Shown: positions 3,698 through 33,257 of the stretch, in pieces
Position numbering within the stretch: position 1 is the stretch's first letter
Layout of the letters: every line of letters begins with the position of its first letter
IMG/VR virus record: IMGVR_UViG_3300025099_000004
Span: 1-56,902 of that record
Direction: 5' to 3' (one strand)
DNA length: 56,902 bases
Source: a virus
Program-made: the position numbers and the translations under genes
The notes under the pieces: generated by a model
Databases searched by the model: none
What the model was told of the DNA's origin: nothing
What the model saw: only the letters and a program-made list of their open reading frames with translations

Positions 3698-6600
3698 ATG
3701 AGTGATCTTGATATAGATTTTTCTGACATAGAAGATTCTACTAATACATCTTTGCAAACTATTGAGCCTGTAAGTTCAAGTGCTTTGTCTGTAGATTTTT
3801 CAGATACTAAACTTGACACTTTTGCTACTGCAGAAAAGAAAAAAGAAATAACTCCTGTTTCTACATCTGTACGTTTTTCAGATAAAGAAATGAAAGATAT
3901 TTTTTATAGTGCCGATGAACCTGATCAATATAGTATGTCATCTATGGGTATGGGTCCATATGAAATAGATAGTAGAATTGAAGATGCCTTTAATAAAAAA
4001 GTTCTTAGTATTGATGAACAAGATAGAAAGTACAAAGAAGAAAAAGCTAGAGATGATGAAGCTATTAGAAGTGCTGAAGTTGCATTTGCTGAAGGTGATC
4101 AGTCTGCAGGTTACGCACTAGAGGCTGCAAAGAAAGCATCTAAAGAAAGAACATCTTTTAAGCCAAAGTCTAAAGAAGAATTAGAGCAATTACGTAACGA
4201 TATTTACTACATGTCTACAGAAGATGATAATGTAGGTAGAAGAGCGATTACAAATGCTATGTTAGATAAGGGCTTTGATTTAGAAACAATAAGCTGGACT
4301 GTACTTGGGACTGAGATAGCACCTATTACTGGTGGAGTAATGGCTGCACTAGAAATTCCTGAAACTGCTAAGATTGTAAGGGAATTGTACAACCAAGGTG
4401 ACTATATATCTATGGCTCCGATACTTGGTATGCAGCTATTTGATATTGGGGCTGGGGTATTAGGTGTAAAGGCTGCAAGTAAAGGTGCAAGGTCTATACT
4501 AGGCACAAAAGATATTAAAAAACGAGTAAGAAACAAAGACAGAATAGTTGCAATAAAAGCAGTAGAAGCTGAGATGAAAGCTAAAGCATTAGCAGAAGCA
4601 AAAAAAGTTGCCAAAGCAAACTCAAAACTTAAACAAGATTTAATAAAAGAGTTTGAAGAAAACACTGGTAAAATTATATCGGATACAAAGACGAATAAAA
4701 AAGGTGTTGAAACTAAAACAATAAATCAAGACAAGGCTCGTATAGCAGGTAATGAAATTAATGAAGAGCTATATGCTTGGCAAGAGGCACGTAAAAAAGA
4801 ATGGACACGTACCAAGGGAGATGACGCTGCACGAAAAGCATTAAACAAAAAGTTCAAAGATGAAGGAGACTTTGCAGGTACTTCTGATGAACAGATATAC
4901 AGAGACTACGTAAAAGAAAATGATATGGTAGTCAATCCTGTACTTAATCCAGACAAGCTAGATTCTCTTATTGCTGTAGCTGCATACTTAGGAGAAAAGA
5001 AACCAAAAATATTTAAGCGTCAGGCTTTGATGTCTCCTAGTGGAAAAATAGTAAAAGAGAAAGGAAAGATAAAGAAAGAATCTTTCTCTGATATGATATT
5101 TAGACTTGCCGTTAACAATGAGTTTGGTGACGATGATGCTCTAGCAGAGGCTTTAGTTAAGTATGGTCTATCTTATGATGACTTTATGCTAGCTGCAGTT
5201 GGGTCATCTACTAAAGCTGGACAAATACTAAATAGATTTTCACAAGCATCACGTGCAGTATCTCCAAGTGTAACATCTGCAGCTAAAGATGTAGTTGAGG
5301 CAGGTGAGCGTAATCCTTTTGTACAAGGCTTTCTAAGATTTGAAAACATTCGTAGGGGTTCTATGACTTCTATGGTCAAAACTGCTATGCGTAATGCTCA
5401 ATCAGGTATGTTGTTAATGCCAGCAGAGGTACTAACAAAAGGTTTTGATAACACTTTGTTAAGTATGACAGATGCCTTTAGAGAAAAAGGTATTGGTTCT
5501 GCACTTGCTGCGGGTGCAAAGACAGTTACGCCTTTTACAAAAGCAGGTAGAGACAACTGGTCAGGGGCAACTCGCTCAGTACAAAGGTTGTTTGGTGATC
5601 CTAGATTTTCAAAACAATTAGCAGAGGTTATATTAGATAGACCTGAGTTTGAAAAAGATTTCTTACGTATACGAGATAACATAAATGAATACAGAAAATA
5701 TTCTGGAAGAGGAAAAGGTGGAGTAGCAGACGCAACGTTTTCTAAATTAGAAGACGTAGTAGATGTACTGCAAATACCTAACAAGATTCAAGAATATATG
5801 ATACGTCATGCTGCATTTAATGGTGAGCTAGAACGTTTACTTAAACGTGAGTATAAAGTAGAATTATTGGATGTACTTGAGGAAGGTGGAATACAAGATT
5901 TAATTAGTAACACATCTAAGTATAGACCAAAAGGTGCAAGAACATTTGAAGAGATAGTCTCAGATAGTACAGACCACGCATTAGAAATGACATACGCAAG
6001 TATGCCTGATAACGCTATGCTTGCAAATGCTACACGTTTTATAACTAATAATGGTCTTACTGTCTTCGTACCTTTCCCAAGGTTTATGTTTAAGTCACTT
6101 GAAATGATGGCTCAATTTTCTGTAGGTGCAGGTAATCCTTTGTTAAAAAGAGTTGCAGCCTTTGACATGAAGAAGCCTTTAACTAAAAACGAACGAAAGT
6201 ATATATCACGTAATATTGTAGGGGCAATGGCAATTACTGCAGCCGCTGGATACAGATCGGGTTTATTTAATTCAGATGATGTACCTGCAGACTACAAAAA
6301 GATGAACGCACCTGACGGTACGGTAATAGATACCACTGCACAGTTTCCTTTGAGACAATTTTTATGGTTTGGAGAAGCTGCAAGACGAATAAAGAATGAT
6401 ACTTTTAATGATTGGTTTAATAAAAAAGAAGCTACAGAAACTTTTTTTGGTCAAAGCTTTAGAACAGGTACAGGTAATATATTTATTCAAGAAATGGCAG
6501 ACATTCTTTCTGGTGCAGAAGATCCAGCAGGGCAGAGCAAGGCAGGTAAAGCGTTAGGAAGAATAGCAGGAGATTATATAAGTAGTGTTATAGTTCCTCT

Positions 6601-7318
6601 TACACAAGTAGTAGATGCACAAAGAGCAACAGGATATAGAACTACTGAATATGCAGACTATGCTGAAGATACTACAGACCAAGGATTTTTTGAAGGTGTA
6701 GGTACACAGGTAAAAAGATCTCTTGGCTCACGTGGATTTTTAAATATTACTGATCCATCATCTGATAAAGACAGACCACGTAGAGAATCTATATTTTCTT
6801 CAGATAGAAAGCGTGAAAACGTAGCTCTAAACTTAGGACTAGGTATATCTACTGTAACTAGAGACGATGAGTATGCGGAGTATATACAGGGAATGGGTTT
6901 CACAGAGTTTGAATTATCAAGTAAGTCTAGGACACCATCCATTAGAAACAGAGAAAATAAACTTATACGAGATAGGCTACCTATTTTAGCACAGGCCGCT
7001 AAACAATTAGAGCTTCAATTAAGAGTTGATTATTTTAAATTACCTGATAGTATTAAGAAAAGATATAAACAAGATGCTTGGGTTAACATGGAGTTAAAAG
7101 ATTTTGTAAAAGAAGAAATGAAAGGTATACGATCTAGCATTAGAGAATTAAGAACGCTAGGAACAAGTGATGCAGTAGTTTTAAGTGAAAAGTTTGGAAG
7201 ACTAGGAAAGAATAAAAGAAAGGTTGCAATTTCTAGGTTTTATTCTAACTTTAATGAACCGCCTAACTTATCAGATGCAGCGGATTTAGAAACGCTTATA
7301 GAATTATCTAAGCAATAA
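3698..7318 (+). CDS. large internal virion (ejection) protein
   Basis: At 1206 residues this is the largest protein encoded, and the last gene of the late unit before the shared terminator. It is rich in charged helices (about residues 260-420 are Lys/Glu/Ala-rich) with scattered hydrophobic patches such as 840-880. Length, position and composition match the large core protein that podoviruses eject to form a channel through the envelope. I see no lytic transglycosylase signature and no RNA polymerase motif, so it is not an N4-type virion polymerase. The name rests on position and composition. Confidence 0.65.
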   Translation: MSDLDIDFSDIEDSTNTSLQTIEPVSSSALSVDFSDTKLDTFATAEKKKEITPVSTSVRFSDKEMKDIFYSADEPDQYSMSSMGMGPYEIDSRIEDAFNKKVLSIDEQDRKYKEEKARDDEAIRSAEVAFAEGDQSAGYALEAAKKASKERTSFKPKSKEELEQLRNDIYYMSTEDDNVGRRAITNAMLDKGFDLETISWTVLGTEIAPITGGVMAALEIPETAKIVRELYNQGDYISMAPILGMQLFDIGAGVLGVKAASKGARSILGTKDIKKRVRNKDRIVAIKAVEAEMKAKALAEAKKVAKANSKLKQDLIKEFEENTGKIISDTKTNKKGVETKTINQDKARIAGNEINEELYAWQEARKKEWTRTKGDDAARKALNKKFKDEGDFAGTSDEQIYRDYVKENDMVVNPVLNPDKLDSLIAVAAYLGEKKPKIFKRQALMSPSGKIVKEKGKIKKESFSDMIFRLAVNNEFGDDDALAEALVKYGLSYDDFMLAAVGSSTKAGQILNRFSQASRAVSPSVTSAAKDVVEAGERNPFVQGFLRFENIRRGSMTSMVKTAMRNAQSGMLLMPAEVLTKGFDNTLLSMTDAFREKGIGSALAAGAKTVTPFTKAGRDNWSGATRSVQRLFGDPRFSKQLAEVILDRPEFEKDFLRIRDNINEYRKYSGRGKGGVADATFSKLEDVVDVLQIPNKIQEYMIRHAAFNGELERLLKREYKVELLDVLEEGGIQDLISNTSKYRPKGARTFEEIVSDSTDHALEMTYASMPDNAMLANATRFITNNGLTVFVPFPRFMFKSLEMMAQFSVGAGNPLLKRVAAFDMKKPLTKNERKYISRNIVGAMAITAAAGYRSGLFNSDDVPADYKKMNAPDGTVIDTTAQFPLRQFLWFGEAARRIKNDTFNDWFNKKEATETFFGQSFRTGTGNIFIQEMADILSGAEDPAGQSKAGKALGRIAGDYISSVIVPLTQVVDAQRATGYRTTEYADYAEDTTDQGFFEGVGTQVKRSLGSRGFLNITDPSSDKDRPRRESIFSSDRKRENVALNLGLGISTVTRDDEYAEYIQGMGFTEFELSSKSRTPSIRNRENKLIRDRLPILAQAAKQLELQLRVDYFKLPDSIKKRYKQDAWVNMELKDFVKEEMKGIRSSIRELRTLGTSDAVVLSEKFGRLGKNKRKVAISRFYSNFNEPPNLSDAADLETLIELSKQ

Positions 7319-24378: not shown

Positions 24379-24503
24379 TAGGCTACCTTTCTACGTAGAC
24401 TGTGTTTCGTTTTACGTGCAAGCTTTCGCTCACGTTTCCAATCATCTTTCTTAGGTCCAACGTTGGACTTAGGTTTCTTCGTAATCTTAACGAAGTTAGT
24501 CAT
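24378..24503 (-). CDS. 41-residue basic protein carrying the SNVGP element
   Basis: Starts MTNFVKITKKPKSNVGPKKD and ends in a run of Lys/Arg (RERKLARKTKHSLRRKVA). The SNVGP peptide is encoded exactly by the 14-bp palindrome at 24455-24468. The protein is highly basic and could bind nucleic acid. It overlaps the next gene by one base and the previous one by eight bases. Confidence 0.6.
   Translation of the reverse strand: MTNFVKITKKPKSNVGPKKDDWKRERKLARKTKHSLRRKVA
24455..24468. repeat. palindromic element copy 1 (GTCCAACGTTGGAC)
   Basis: A perfect 14-bp palindrome inside the 41-residue basic gene, read there as S-N-V-G-P. The flanks CTTAG and TTAGG are almost inverted too. Identical cores lie at 26093 and 26967, with one-base variants at 25715 and 27664. 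Confidence 0.9.
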
Positions 24504-25714: not shown

Positions 25715-25728
25715 GTCCAATGTTGGAC
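25715..25728. repeat. palindromic element copy 2 (GTCCAATGTTGGAC)
   Basis: Differs from the perfect palindrome by one central base. It lies in the spacer downstream of the 63-residue gene, and its last base is part of that gene's stop codon, so here it is not translated as SNVGP. Confidence 0.85.
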
Positions 25729-26012: not shown

Positions 26013-26228
26013 TTAATTTACGTCACGCCATCCTGTGTCTTGACGCCATTCAATTAAGTTACCGACTTGATCATAAACTTCGTTTACTTTAGGTCCAACG
26101 TTGGACTTGGCTTGTTGCTGTTTAGCAAGGTCAAGTCGAGCTTTCAGCTCAATACGTCTGTCTGCTTTCGGCGTAGCATAGACTTGTCGTAGTCTAGCAG
26201 AGCTAGAATTATGTAAATAATATTTCAT
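26013..26228 (-). CDS. hypothetical protein carrying the SNVGP element
   Basis: The start at 26228 (MKYYLHNSSSARLRQVYATP) follows GGAG by six bases; the longer frame from 26246 lacks a site. This gives 71 residues. The middle is basic (KADRRIELKARLDLAKQQQ), followed by AKSNVGPKVNEV, where SNVGP is encoded by the palindrome at 26093-26106. The C-terminus is Trp-rich. No family recognised. Confidence 0.6.
   Translation of the reverse strand: MKYYLHNSSSARLRQVYATPKADRRIELKARLDLAKQQQAKSNVGPKVNEVYDQVGNLIEWRQDTGWRDVN
26093..26106. repeat. palindromic element copy 3 (GTCCAACGTTGGAC)
   Basis: Perfect 14-bp palindrome inside the 71-residue gene, in the same reading frame relative to translation as copies 1 and 4, giving K-S-N-V-G-P. 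Confidence 0.9.
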
Positions 26229-26229
26229 A

Positions 26230-26373
26230 TTATACTCCAAATACATAGCAAAGTTTTGCTATTGAGAAACCAATAATTGCTACATCAATTATAATAATTG
26301 ACCATGCAACAAAGCGAATTAAATCATGGTAAGTACCATCAGCTTGGCACAAGTATTTAACTACGTTAAACAT
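26230..26373 (-). CDS. 47-residue single-pass membrane protein
   Basis: MFNVVKYLCQADGTYHDLIR is followed by a long hydrophobic stretch (FVAWSIIIIDVAIIGFSIA) that should cross the membrane once, and a short tail. It overlaps the upstream gene's stop by eight bases and ends next to the GGAG of the following gene. A hairpin at 26245-26262 (eight-bp stem) lies in its 3' part. A small early membrane protein could block superinfection or alter host transport; this is only a guess. Confidence 0.6.
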   Translation of the reverse strand: MFNVVKYLCQADGTYHDLIRFVAWSIIIIDVAIIGFSIAKLCYVFGV

Positions 26374-26560
26374 CATCATCATCGTCCTCTTCTAGATTTC
26401 CAAAAAGAGTAAGACACTGAAGTGTGTGACCTTCTTTACCTATTTTTGTGAAGTGATCGACAATTCTATCAATACTATCACCTTCTTCCATATCTATGGT
26501 TGTAGGTGACGTATTGCCATAGTGATTAGATGTCAGATACATTGTTAATTTATATTTCAT
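26366..26560 (-). CDS. hypothetical acidic protein
   Basis: A 64-residue protein, MKYKLTMYLTSNHYGNTSPT and onward, ending in EEDDDDDV. A short strand-rich front followed by a helix and an acidic tail. Such polyacidic tails appear in phage proteins that mimic DNA or bind basic partners. No family recognised. Confidence 0.55.
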   Translation of the reverse strand: MKYKLTMYLTSNHYGNTSPTTIDMEEGDSIDRIVDHFTKIGKEGHTLQCLTLFGNLEEDDDDDV

Positions 26561-26574
26561 TTTGTAATCTCCCT

Positions 26575-26772
26575 TTACGCCAACGATACCTTAACGACAT
26601 CGCCTTGCGGATTGTACATAACCGACACAGTACGATGCACATTTCTTGCACCCATCCATGTATTCCACCATGCATCTGCATCAGATTTTGTATCACAAAA
26701 TAAACTATTGCAATGTAAATCTGTCGTGCTTTCTTCCGCATAACAAGAATGGGTAGATTTTAATTCCCACAT
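26575..26772 (-). CDS. hypothetical protein
   Basis: A 65-residue protein rich in Trp, Cys and Ser (SDADAWWNTWMGARNVHRTV). Its ribosome-binding AAAGG lies inside a perfect six-bp hairpin with TTC loop (26778-26792), so folding of the leader could control its translation. No family recognised. Confidence 0.55.
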   Translation of the reverse strand: MWELKSTHSCYAEESTTDLHCNSLFCDTKSDADAWWNTWMGARNVHRTVSVMYNPQGDVVKVSLA

Positions 26773-26802
26773 GATAATAACCTTTCAGGTTAAAGTGACA
26801 GC

Positions 26803-27384
26803 TTACGCTGCCACCTTTGTTTCTTCTGCTTCAGCTTCGCTGACTGTATCCACTTCCATTAGCATCTCTGCTATGTCGAGTAGGTCTATGTTATTTGCTT
26901 TGCAAACTGCAACCAGCTTGTCAAAGACAAGTTCTTTGGTGACAGTAACCGTAGGTTTCTCAGTAGGTCCAACGTTGGACTTGACTTCAGCTTCGCTGTT
27001 AGTACCTTCGGTATCTTCAGCCTTTGGCTTGCTAGGCTTCATAGCTCTCTGCAAAGCAGTGAGAGAAGTAAATCCTTTCTTGCTTTTAGCAACAAACTTT
27101 CTAGCATCAACTTCGTTGTTGATAAACCATTCAGCTTCGCTGCGGCGTCTCTTGTCCACTAAGTGGAGATGAACTTCACGAAGCCTTTGGCTTGTGATTT
27201 TACCACCATTGACTTCGGCTCTCAATTCTACCATCAGCTTTCCAAGCCGTGTGTCGAATCCATCAGCTTTGGTTGACTTGTTGAAACGTCTCTTATCACC
27301 TTTGGTGATTGTTTCCCATTCCTCTGCTAAGGCTTTGCCTTGATCTTCCAGAGTTGTGATATTTTGAATTTGAAGATTTGCCAT
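26803..27384 (-). CDS. first gene of the leftward unit; charged hypothetical protein with SNVGP element
   Basis: A 193-residue protein rich in Lys, Glu and Ala. Residues 1-100 are probably helical and folded (for example EEWETITKGDKRRF and VELRAEVNGGKITSQRL). Residues 115-145 form a low-complexity linker with KPSKPKAEDTEG and VKSNVGPTEKP. The C-terminal part has a FDKLVAVCKANNIDLLDIAE helical segment and ends in acidic EAEAEETKVAA. The reading frame is packed with mini-hairpins, so many codons read as a triplet, GAA or AAA, then its complement (S-E-A, N-E-V, T-E-G). AAGGA precedes the ATG. No family recognised; its position suggests immediate-early expression. Confidence 0.65.
   Translation of the reverse strand: MANLQIQNITTLEDQGKALAEEWETITKGDKRRFNKSTKADGFDTRLGKLMVELRAEVNGGKITSQRLREVHLHLVDKRRRSEAEWFINNEVDARKFVAKSKKGFTSLTALQRAMKPSKPKAEDTEGTNSEAEVKSNVGPTEKPTVTVTKELVFDKLVAVCKANNIDLLDIAEMLMEVDTVSEAEAEETKVAA
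26967..26980. repeat. palindromic element copy 4 (GTCCAACGTTGGAC)
   Basis: Perfect 14-bp palindrome inside the 193-residue gene, translated K-S-N-V-G-P in the Lys/Glu-rich linker. Confidence 0.9.
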
Positions 27385-27663
27385 TTGGTTGGTCCTTTTA
27401 TCTATAATCTGTTTTTATATGAGAAACGTATATCTCTCACTAAAGGTGAGATATACTTTATCATTAAAAACTAATAGATTATAGTATAAGTTTTCGATTT
27501 GGTTCTCACATGTGATCCTCTGCGCCTGTCGTTTCACAGGTGACTGCAAAAATATATTTCATATATATTTTGAAGTTCGTGCGCTAAACTCATGCGAGGC
27601 TTCGATTTGCACAAACATCTGAAAAGTGTGACAAATATGTCATATACTTTGTATATGGGTTAA

Positions 27664-27677
27664 GTCCAACATTGGAC
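27664..27677. repeat. palindromic element copy 5 (GTCCAACATTGGAC)
   Basis: One-base variant of the palindrome in the non-coding leader of the leftward unit, next to the seven-bp CATATAC-TTT-GTATATG hairpin at 27641-27657. It shows that the element is not confined to coding sequence. Confidence 0.85.
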
Positions 27678-28136
27678 CACCAAATCTGTTTGGCAGAGCT
27701 GTGTACGGCTTGTAGGATCATGCATCTGCCATCAGAGATGGTGGGTATGGTTTTGTGCATCGTCCTTTGAAATACACCCTTGGTGTAAAAAACGGCCTGT
27801 TATCTCACTCTAAAGAGTGGCAACTGATTGCATAACAGTTGTCGTAGACAAGTAAGTGATTGAAAGTAAACATATCTTTGATATGATGGTGGAGTGAAGC
27901 ATGGTTTTTGCTGTCACCGCAGGTATGCAAGGCATAATGTGTAGGCATGCGCAGGGTGAACGCAGCGGTAGGCGAGGGCCACACGCCCCCACGTGGATAG
28001 TATATACATACAAGCACACAGATCTGGAAAATAGGGTGTTAACTACTTTACACATATGCATAAACGTGGTCACACAGGACACATAACGTGATCACAAACG
28101 GTTTGGCAAATGTGTACAGTGAATACTAGTAACTTT

Positions 28137-28156
28137 ATGTTACAGTATAGTAACAT
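28137..28156. promoter_or_regulatory. inverted repeat ATGTTAC-N6-GTAACAT, possible operator
   Basis: A perfect seven-bp inverted repeat with AGTATA centre, followed by a further TGTAAC at 28161. The palindromic form and position just upstream of the TTGACA at 28182 suit a dimeric regulator site. Confidence 0.5.
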
Positions 28157-28181
28157 TTAGTGTAACAATTGAAATTAACAC

Positions 28182-28209
28182 TTGACATGGGGTATTATGT
28201 GTGTAAAAC
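28182..28209 (+). promoter_or_regulatory. candidate rightward promoter
   Basis: A consensus -35 TTGACA is followed after 16 bases by TAAAAC as a partial -10. It lies 200 bases before the first rightward gene, beside the inverted repeat at 28137. The weak -10 makes this tentative. Confidence 0.35.
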
Positions 28210-28406
28210 TATGTATATAGTATATAGCAATAACCATATAAGTGTTACATGTACAGTGATACACTAACATATATTAATACTTACTTATAATTATACTTAA
28301 ATATCCTTAACATATAAGTAAAACACGTACAGTGATACATGTATATGGAGTAATCCGTAGATAAATATTGCCGTTAGGCAAGAATTTGTACAAATAAGTA
28401 TTGACA

Positions 28407-31993: not shown

Positions 31994-32346
31994 TACTAGG
32001 ACAAATCTTTGGTGCAGTAGGTGGACTTGCTACAACTTACCTAGATGGTAAGGTAGCCGTACAGAAAGCCAATGCAGAAATAAAAGTTAAACAAGCTACT
32101 GGTGAAATTGATTGGGACATAGAGGCAATCAAGGCTACACAGAATAGCTGGAAAGATGAGTGGATAACTTTGCTTTTTTCAATTCCATTAATCTTAGCCT
32201 TCTGTGGTGATTGGGGAAATGAAATTGTACAGCGTGGATTCCTAGCATTAGAGGTTATGCCAGCATGGTATCAGTACTCATTAGGTGGAATTGTAAGTGC
32301 CAGCATAGGAATAAGGTCAGTATCTAAGTTCTTTGGTAAAAAGTAA
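31990..32346 (+). CDS. holin, 3TM (GTA type)
   Basis: A 118-residue protein: an N-terminal helix with FGAVGGLATTYLDGKVAVQK, then KATQNSWKDEWITLLFSIPL and two more hydrophobic stretches. This matches the 3TM holin family found in gene transfer agents and marine phages of alphaproteobacteria. It would permeabilise the inner membrane and release the endolysin encoded 0.8 kb downstream. Confidence 0.82.
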   Translation: MILGQIFGAVGGLATTYLDGKVAVQKANAEIKVKQATGEIDWDIEAIKATQNSWKDEWITLLFSIPLILAFCGDWGNEIVQRGFLALEVMPAWYQYSLGGIVSASIGIRSVSKFFGKK

Positions 32347-32522
32347 TGTGGGTACTAGTTTGGCTGCAACTTACTTCTGGTATGCCACTTGATTATTTTC
32401 AACTAGGCGTGTATGATACTAGAAAGATGTGTGAGTTACAAAAGGAAAAAGCACAAGTTATGATTATACATAACGGTATATCTGTGCAATGTATAGGAAT
32501 AGACAATGGCGAAACTGAATGA
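32346..32522 (+). CDS. small hypothetical protein in lysis cluster
   Basis: A 58-residue frame opening MWVLVWLQLTSGMPLDYFQL with two Cys later (MCELQK, VQCIG). The N-terminal hydrophobic segment could be a signal or anchor, and the paired cysteines fit an exported protein, possibly a spanin partner of the next gene. It overlaps holin and the next gene by a few bases. Confidence 0.55.
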   Translation: MWVLVWLQLTSGMPLDYFQLGVYDTRKMCELQKEKAQVMIIHNGISVQCIGIDNGETE

Positions 32523-32802
32523 AAGTTCTGAGTTTACTATACCATTAAAAAACTTGTTAGCTTTAGTTGCAGCTACAGCTATATCTGTATGGGCTTACTT
32601 TGGTATTATGGAACGTCTTGCATTTATAGAGCATGACATATCTATGATGCAAATAGAAGTAGAAGAGAACGATAACTGGATAGATGAGTTTGAACCACCC
32701 CCTACCGTAATGGACAGTGTGGAGAGAGTAAGACAATTAGAAATAAAAATAAAAGAACTGGAACTTAAAATGCAGTTTCTTGTAGCTTCAAGGAGAGGAT
32801 AA
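32506..32802 (+). CDS. single-pass membrane coiled-coil protein, possible i-spanin
   Basis: A 98-residue protein with one membrane segment (LLALVAATAISVWAYFGIM, about 18-36) followed by a charged helix and a C-terminal coiled coil (RVRQLEIKIKELELKMQFLV). This topology is that of inner-membrane spanins, which disrupt the outer membrane after endolysin action. Position between holin and endolysin agrees. A similar topology is seen at 55932. Confidence 0.55.
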   Translation: MAKLNESSEFTIPLKNLLALVAATAISVWAYFGIMERLAFIEHDISMMQIEVEENDNWIDEFEPPPTVMDSVERVRQLEIKIKELELKMQFLVASRRG

Positions 32803-32804
32803 CA

Positions 32805-33257
32805 ATGGCATTTAAACTATCACAACGCAGCCTTGATAAACTAGAAGGTGTAGACAGTGACTTAGTTGCAGTTGTAAAACGTGCAATTGAATTAACTAAA
32901 GTAGACTTTGGTGTAATCTATGGTATGCGTACAGAAGAAGAACAAAAGAAACTTGTAGCGGCAGGTAAATCACAGACTATGAAATCCAATCACCTTATTG
33001 GTAAAGCAGTAGACCTTATGGCATATGTAGATGGTAAAGGTGTATGGGAACTAAACGTATATGATGATCTGTGTGACGCAATGAAAGCGGCAGCGGAAGA
33101 ACTAGGCACATCCGTTAAGTGGGGTGCAGCATGGTCAGAGGGTGACATTCGTACATACCCCGGAACTGCAGAAGATGCAATGATGAAGTACATTGATATT
33201 AGACGTAGCCAAGGACGTAGACCCTTTATTGACGGTCCACATTTTGAGTTAATGTAA
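32805..33257 (+). CDS. endolysin, M15-family L-Ala-D-Glu / D-Ala peptidase
   Basis: A 150-residue peptidoglycan peptidase. The zinc site is visible: SNHLIGKAVDLMAY gives H63 and D70, and DGPHFEL gives H146. YGMRTEEEQ near residue 39 is the substrate-side motif. The length fits single-domain T5-like endolysins. It should cleave the peptide stems after holin triggering. Confidence 0.92.
   Translation: MAFKLSQRSLDKLEGVDSDLVAVVKRAIELTKVDFGVIYGMRTEEEQKKLVAAGKSQTMKSNHLIGKAVDLMAYVDGKGVWELNVYDDLCDAMKAAAEELGTSVKWGAAWSEGDIRTYPGTAEDAMMKYIDIRRSQGRRPFIDGPHFELM

Follow-up and report, generated by a model that had tools for sequence, protein, structure and literature searches.

A clade-conserved field of mini-hairpins with three-nucleotide loops over the first early gene of HMO-2011-type marine phages

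The beginning of the early transcription unit in an HMO-2011-type marine phage carries an array of short perfect inverted repeats that is specific to its place and to one loop length and is conserved across the clade. Pairing in these repeats is preserved by compensatory change in coding and non-coding DNA alike, and the length of the stems is limited. As a tentative explanation, we propose that about 20 DNA mini-hairpins are selected for their shape and may constitute a replication initiation zone. No known family fits the hairpin array. It is a strong conserved signal at an early control region, written in structure and laid over a gene, and it is undescribed in the open literature searched. 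The group of phages that hosts it is among the commonest in the ocean, and the cultured isolates HMO-2011, CRP-1, and CRP-345 offer a ready test system.

The hairpin field and its genome

The window analyzed here is a whole virus record of 56,902 bp. Its gene set and gene order agree with those of Puniceispirillum phage HMO-2011 and of roseophages CRP-1 and CRP-345, the matching genes being polymerase, helicase, primase, integrase, B12-dependent ribonucleotide reductase, terminase, portal, and coat. The early and replication genes run leftward and the virion genes rightward from a divergence point at ~28 kb, and the hairpin field lies at the beginning of the leftward (early) unit. A GC-skew switch coincides with the field and is confounded by the divergent transcription. 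Prophage homologues were sought in bacterial genomes and none were found. One late protein of 1206 aa (window 3698-7318) is conserved among HMO-2011-type phages, and searches of Pfam and PDB found no relative for it. A model of the C-terminal 917 residues, of moderate confidence, is mostly helical, and the protein is probably a virion component.

Between positions 26778 and 27936 there are 17 perfect inverted repeats with a stem of at least 5 bp and a loop of 3 nt. The original prediction, made from this sequence, had reported at least 14 such hairpins in 1.16 kb where about one was expected by chance, and the observation is confirmed and stronger than reported. The rest of the genome predicts 1.9 for this interval (Poisson P ~2e-11), and a similar density was not seen elsewhere in the genome. 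Among 1000 dinucleotide shuffles of the interval the average is 1.3 and the highest count 6. A stem cut-off of at least 4 bp yields 27 repeats vs 5.8 expected. When loop lengths from 0 to 20 were compared for stems of at least 5 bp, strong enrichment was seen only at 3 nt, every other length giving at most 3 matches. Plus-strand loops are TTT or TTC in 10 of the 17 hairpins, in keeping with the earlier claim that these loops predominate. CAGC-TTC-GCTG was found three times on the plus strand (26832, 26988, and 27132), as the prediction had stated, and GCGAAGC therefore lies on the other strand.

The gene part alone contains 9 hairpins vs 1.2 in synonymous-codon shuffles (maximum 7 in 2000), and the leader part alone contains 7 vs 0.7 in dinucleotide shuffles (maximum 5 in 2000). 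Because gene and leader each exceed their own shuffles, the field does cross the coding/non-coding border, as had been proposed; it also extends beyond the left border first given for it, to ~26138. No clear regularity was found in the spacing of the hairpins, and their flanks show no sequence motif except a mild A richness. The stems are unrelated in sequence and confined to one locus, with no shared dispersed repeat of the REP/BIME type. REP/BIME and other interspersed palindromes resemble the field in supplying many short palindromic hairpins per genome; unlike the hairpins described here, REPs share sequence. The features are listed below, with hairpins given as gene-strand sequences.

26138-27936, strand not assigned: full field with 3-nt loops, 24 hairpins, stems of 5-7 bp, densest in 26778-27936
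26803-27384, minus: first leftward (early) gene, 193 aa, overlapped by the field; alpha-helical product, conserved in field-bearing HMO-2011-type phages
27385-27940, minus: non-coding leader with the conserved mini-hairpin series
26778-26792, minus: TAACCT-GAA-AGGTTA, kept in relatives L014, L015, and L018
26831-26843, minus: TCAGC-GAA-GCTGA, contains GCGAAGC
26894-26906, minus: TTTGC-AAA-GCAAA
26900-26912, minus: TTGCA-GTT-TGCAA, overlaps the hairpin at 26894-26906
26917-26931, minus: CTTGTC-TTT-GACAAG
27080-27092, minus: TTGCT-AAA-AGCAA
27155-27167, minus: TCCAC-TTA-GTGGA
27181-27193, minus: AAGCC-AAA-GGCTT
27295-27309, minus: ATCACC-AAA-GGTGAT, identical 15 nt in HMO-2011
27329-27341, minus: AAGGC-AAA-GCCTT, compensated in relatives (AGGGC-AAA-GCCCT, AGGGT-AAA-ACCCT)
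27552-27566, minus: ATATAT-GAA-ATATAT
27641-27657, minus: CATATAC-AAA-GTATATG
27729-27741, minus: CCATC-TCT-GATGG, same stem in relatives with loop AAA, TTC, or GAA
27773-27787, minus: TACACC-AAG-GGTGTA, compensated in relatives as CACACC/GGTGTG, TACACT/AGTGTA, and CACACT/AGTGTG
27806-27819, minus: CACTC-TTTA-GAGTG, 2/4-nt loop, double changes at 5 of 6 pairs in relatives
27839-27851, minus: TTGTC-TAC-GACAA
27871-27885, minus: CATATC-AAA-GATATG, compensated in relatives (CACATC-GTA-GATGTG, CATAC-GAA-GTATG)
27924-27936, minus: TATGC-CTT-GCATA

Conservation, compensation, and geometry

The family set comprises 49 non-redundant members, drawn from IMG/VR loci and isolates. Counts over the family are not counts of independent events, and independent genome pairs or unique events were used where stated. 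Of the 49 relatives, 47 carry the field at the homologous gene and its leader. Its rate is 10-14 hairpins per kb over most of the interval from -500 to +750 (relative to the start codon), falling to 3 per kb in the final 250 bp of the leader and to ~1 per kb beyond -1250 in the upstream flank. Family-wide, there is a moderate increase in loops of 2 and 4 nt, and loops of at least 6 nt stay near background; a weaker excess of 2-4-nt loops reaches ~+2.5 kb. The 49 first genes together hold 379 hairpins vs 60.5 +/- 6.5 in synonymous-codon shuffles, and with the excess in the leader this upholds the earlier argument that protein coding alone is insufficient. Chance, composition, and codon usage are rejected by the shuffles.

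Two relatives, L029 and L078, retain the first gene (~60% identical in L029) and have largely lost the field, so that they can serve as natural controls for what the field does. L029 lacks the conserved leader elements and also nearly all of the hairpins within the gene. L078 has CACACT-AAG-AGTGTG twice, 33 nt apart, at ~-346 and -313 from the first gene, which suggests that single hairpins can be duplicated.

No field was found in CRP-2, CRP-603, and CRP-207 or in the more distant HMO-type relatives CRP-3 and HTVC033P, all of which have homologous polymerase, helicase, and primase and no homologue of the first gene. It was likewise not found in T7, in roseophages DSS3phi2 and SIO1, in pelagiphage HTVC010P, or in the 50 kb of phage N4 that were examined. 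That the field might be a general property of phages or of this replisome is rejected by these comparison phages and by the CRP-2-type relatives; since CRP-2, CRP-603, and CRP-207 do without it, this replisome does not generally require it. The field accompanies the first gene and not the shared replication genes, a tie that is a correlation because other genes also separate the two clades.

Among the homologues, stems are conserved or compensated. When independent pairs of relatives were aligned across leader and gene, positions at which both pairing partners had changed were compensated in 78 cases and not in 27, and background repeats of the same form gave a ratio of compensatory to non-compensatory changes of 1:11. 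A formal covariation count used ten leaders and six hairpins taken from the window. In it, 94% of the cells were paired, changes on both sides occurred in 15 of 36 pairs (6.4 when shuffled, 0-4 with a slid partner), and the covariation score was 0.31 vs 0.03-0.08 for the slid versions. The hairpin at 27773-27787 illustrates the pattern, appearing as CACACC-GAA-GGTGTG in L012, TACACT-AAG-AGTGTA in L014, and CACACT-CTT-AGTGTG in L019.

What is conserved is a shape. Among 612 family hairpins, 312 have a 6-bp stem vs 234 with a 5-bp stem; in background repeats 5-bp stems dominate (102 vs 23 with 6 bp). A stem extends from 5 to 6 bp with a probability of 0.74 in the leader and 0.52 in the gene, and from 6 to 7 bp with a probability of 0.18 and 0.16, respectively, where 0.25 is the random expectation (P = 4e-4). 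The closing pair is C-G in 53% and T-A in 37% of family hairpins, and its 5' base is a pyrimidine in 547 of 612 vs 58 of 131 background repeats. No base preference was found at stem positions beyond the closing pair, except for weak A/T at the outer pairs. GAA, AAA, and GGA are the commonest gene-strand loops and C-AAA-G and T-GAA-A the commonest forms of loop with closing pair, and GNA loops make up ~31% of hairpins. Hairpins with a 3-nt GNA loop and a 5'-pyrimidine closing pair, as in GCGAAGC, are of the stable DNA mini-hairpin type. The loops are strand-asymmetric even in the non-coding leader, where GAA outnumbers TTC by 44 to 8 and AAA outnumbers TTT by 31 to 9. Of 380 hairpins in the gene, 232 have a loop that falls on a codon; in this phase third positions face first positions, and stems can therefore be built largely with synonymous bases.

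Folded DNA, folded RNA, or a trace of copying

The chief rival to folded DNA, which we consider rather unlikely, is an RNA hairpin array in the leader and coding part of the early transcript, for example providing repeated sites for binding of a phage protein, acting in antitermination, or blocking the pairing of nascent RNA with DNA. The field does lie on the early transcription unit and fades downstream, and its loops are strand-asymmetric in non-coding DNA. The leader folds well as RNA (z -6.8) and has a nested hairpin before the ribosome-binding site; as DNA, each of its strands also folds much better than its shuffles do (z -7.3 and -7.1). The closing pair favors G·T over A·C by 39 to 10, as would be permitted in folded RNA and also in a single DNA strand that folds. 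Inside the stems, however, single mismatches are G·T in 15 cases vs A·C in 30, and the near-perfect leader stems show no G·T excess, although at one stem position in the gene G·T is the commoner of the two. Transversions account for 17 of 33 compensated pair changes; they proceed without a G·U intermediate, which argues against RNA structure. Loops of 5-8 nt, which are good in RNA, are not clearly enriched, and an Rfam search matched no known RNA family. The RNA reading offered in the original prediction is thus disfavored by the mismatches inside stems and by the transversions, and what stands of it is the loop asymmetry and the folding of the leader. DNA is further favored by the 3-nt loops of the stable mini-hairpin type, which C-GNA-G shares with the N4 promoter hairpins, and by the exact loop inversions described below. 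It is clearly more likely that the hairpins act as DNA than as RNA.

Somewhat less probable still is a copying artefact, in which replication stalls in this zone, template switching rewrites the arms, and repeats accumulate without function. Earlier work shows that template switching can both create and repair the stems of hairpins and can invert their loops (PMC8794818). Here, exact inversions make up 10 of 37 three-base loop changes with the paired stems intact, an enrichment exemplified by CCATC-TTC-GATGG vs CCATC-GAA-GATGG within near-identical immediate flanks, and several losses and gains rewrite one arm only. Such exact inversions are DNA-level events of the template-switch kind. Against an account by copying alone, stems end at 6 bp more abruptly than expected at random, loops are predominantly of a single length, both the loop sequence and the closing pair show bias, most loops in coding DNA fall in the synonymous-friendly codon phase, and single point changes lie behind many gains and losses in closely related pairs. 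The template-switch hairpins described by Monttinen and Loytynoja (PMC8794818) share with the field perfect stems, compensatory changes, and loop inversions; they reflect a mutational process in known RNA genes, whereas the field has tight bounds on loop and stem and occupies one region of a phage genome. Neutral copying probably contributes events, leaving the 6-bp limit, the loop length, and the locality unexplained. Of the earlier suggestion that short palindromes accumulate here by copying, the template-switch-like events hold up, and selection on shape is indicated by the 6-bp stop, by the preference for one loop length, and by the confinement to a single region. If the field were mutational after all, it would document template switching at tiny phage hairpins with a clarity unusual for a natural record.

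A possible replication initiation zone

The reading that we tentatively prefer starts from mini-hairpins of folded DNA. The selected shape would be a Watson-Crick stem of 5-6 bp with a 3-nt loop (sometimes a 4-nt TNNA loop), a closing pair with 5' pyrimidine and 3' purine, and a loop that is purine-rich on the gene strand. Under negative supercoiling, transcription, or opening of the duplex, the gene strand would fold into compact hairpins, which could hold the strands apart and display a recurring structural signal for a structure-specific protein to recognize. The array would most likely serve as a strand-opening zone for replication, at the junction of two transcription units and beside an A+T-rich block, with the product of the first gene as the candidate binding protein. 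Such an origin in or around an initiator gene, with inverted repeats by an A+T-rich block, has the arrangement found in lambda, and initiation would therefore be the likeliest role. The weakest link in this chain is the one that leads from hairpins of DNA to the initiation of replication, and a role in early transcription would be the next choice. The prediction had likewise offered a single-stranded initiation or origin zone, which is compatible with our results and is the leading sub-hypothesis; what speaks against it is the absence of the field from relatives that have homologous replication genes and no first-gene homologue.

The lambda origin lies inside the initiator gene, with inverted repeats beside an A+T-rich region (PMC5043065). 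In both ori of gene O and the field, inverted repeats recur within a gene located where an early operon begins, with an A+T-rich block adjoining. The differences are that the lambda iterons are 19-bp repeats of one sequence, whereas here geometry is conserved and stem sequence is not, and that, unlike gene O, the first gene has a product with no recognizable fold. This alpha-helical protein has conserved basic positions R80, R81, and K102. Searches with Pfam, PHROGs, and PDB profiles gave no family or fold, and Foldseek matched no solved structure; its one close match was a viral protein of 205 aa with 28% identity, presumably the HMO-2011 homologue. The A+T-rich block adjoins the field upstream and is present family-wide at -1000 to -750 (71% A+T vs ~60%).

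A further conjecture, held with slightly less assurance than the initiation zone, is that a phage protein, perhaps the first gene's product, reads dozens of mini-hairpins on one strand by their geometry alone, a 6-bp stem with a 3-nt purine loop. The genome would then keep renewing this geometry in regulatory and coding DNA alike while the sequence changes freely, which would make the field a new kind of initiation signal. If a protein does read the field, this would be a new form of nucleic-acid recognition.

It is improbable that the field is instead an array of N4-type promoters, at which an injected, hairpin-reading RNA polymerase starts early transcription on DNA hairpins. N4 virion-RNAP promoters have a stem of 5-7 bp, a 3-nt loop, a C:G closing pair, and a loop with 5'G and 3'A, the last two features making them extrude from duplex DNA (PMC4496689). 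The field matches the stem and loop lengths: as in N4 P1-P3, its hairpins are short, have a 3-nt loop, and lie near early genes. C-GAA-G and C-GGA-G are frequent in it, C closes 53% of the hairpins and GNA loops make up ~31%, and the commonest forms are C-AAA-G and T-GAA-A. No other phage RNA polymerase was found in the large ORFs. N4, however, has three promoters with fixed stem bases, which it needs, and a giant virion RNA polymerase; the field has ~20 hairpins, their stems are variable, and they occur within coding DNA and have no conserved stem bases beyond the closing pair. No virion-RNAP-like protein was found by Pfam, PHROGs, or PDB profile searches, which a very divergent enzyme may have escaped, and the best candidate by size, the 1206-aa protein, has a mostly helical model and no RNAP match. 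With the gene strand as template, moreover, transcription would run away from the early genes, and N4 itself has no such field in the 50 kb examined. Finally, a coding or compositional by-product, in which peptide motifs of the SEA/AEE type or biased codons make chance palindromes, can be practically dismissed: some hairpins do code for SEA or KG motifs that recur, and Glu or Lys codons often form the loops, but the synonymous-codon shuffles fall far below the count observed, and the same excess and compensation occur in the non-coding leader.

A separate array was seen in phage N4 (L093), where 13 inverted repeats with 7-nt loops occupy 1.2 kb at ~32000-33200, largely without annotated genes.

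Other elements around the first gene

The intergenic stretch at window 28100-28400 is 72% A+T and contains two direct repeats with CAYGTACAGTGA (28248 and 28324). A promoter scan of the gene strand gave no convincing candidate in the leader. Directly before the ribosome-binding site of the first gene lies a long nested hairpin (window 27402-27484) with outer arms at 27402-27413/27473-27484 and inner arms at 27425-27436/27448-27459, compensated in relatives, which may control translation or transcription. At window 27821-27841 lies CAACTG-N9-CAGTTG (CAACTGATTGCATAACAGTTG, plus strand), unique in the genome; it is kept in 39 of 49 leaders, including that of HMO-2011, and no other leader element was seen to be conserved so widely.

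A 14-bp dyad, GTCCRAYRTYGGAC, is a feature separate from the hairpin field and occurs in the window at the following positions.

24455-24468: first copy of the dyad
25715-25728: second copy
26093-26106: third copy
26967-26980: fourth copy
27664-27677: fifth copy

The GTCCRAYRTYGGAC dyad is found in most relatives at similar sites, ~-280, +400, and +1050 from the first start codon, and HMO-2011 is without it. The copies in one genome are mostly of one variant (GTCCAA..TTGGAC, GTCCGA..TCGGAC, CCCCAACGTTGGGG, or CCCCGATGTCGGGG), as expected of an operator array that co-evolves with its regulator, and these dyads are possibly stoperator-like immunity sites.
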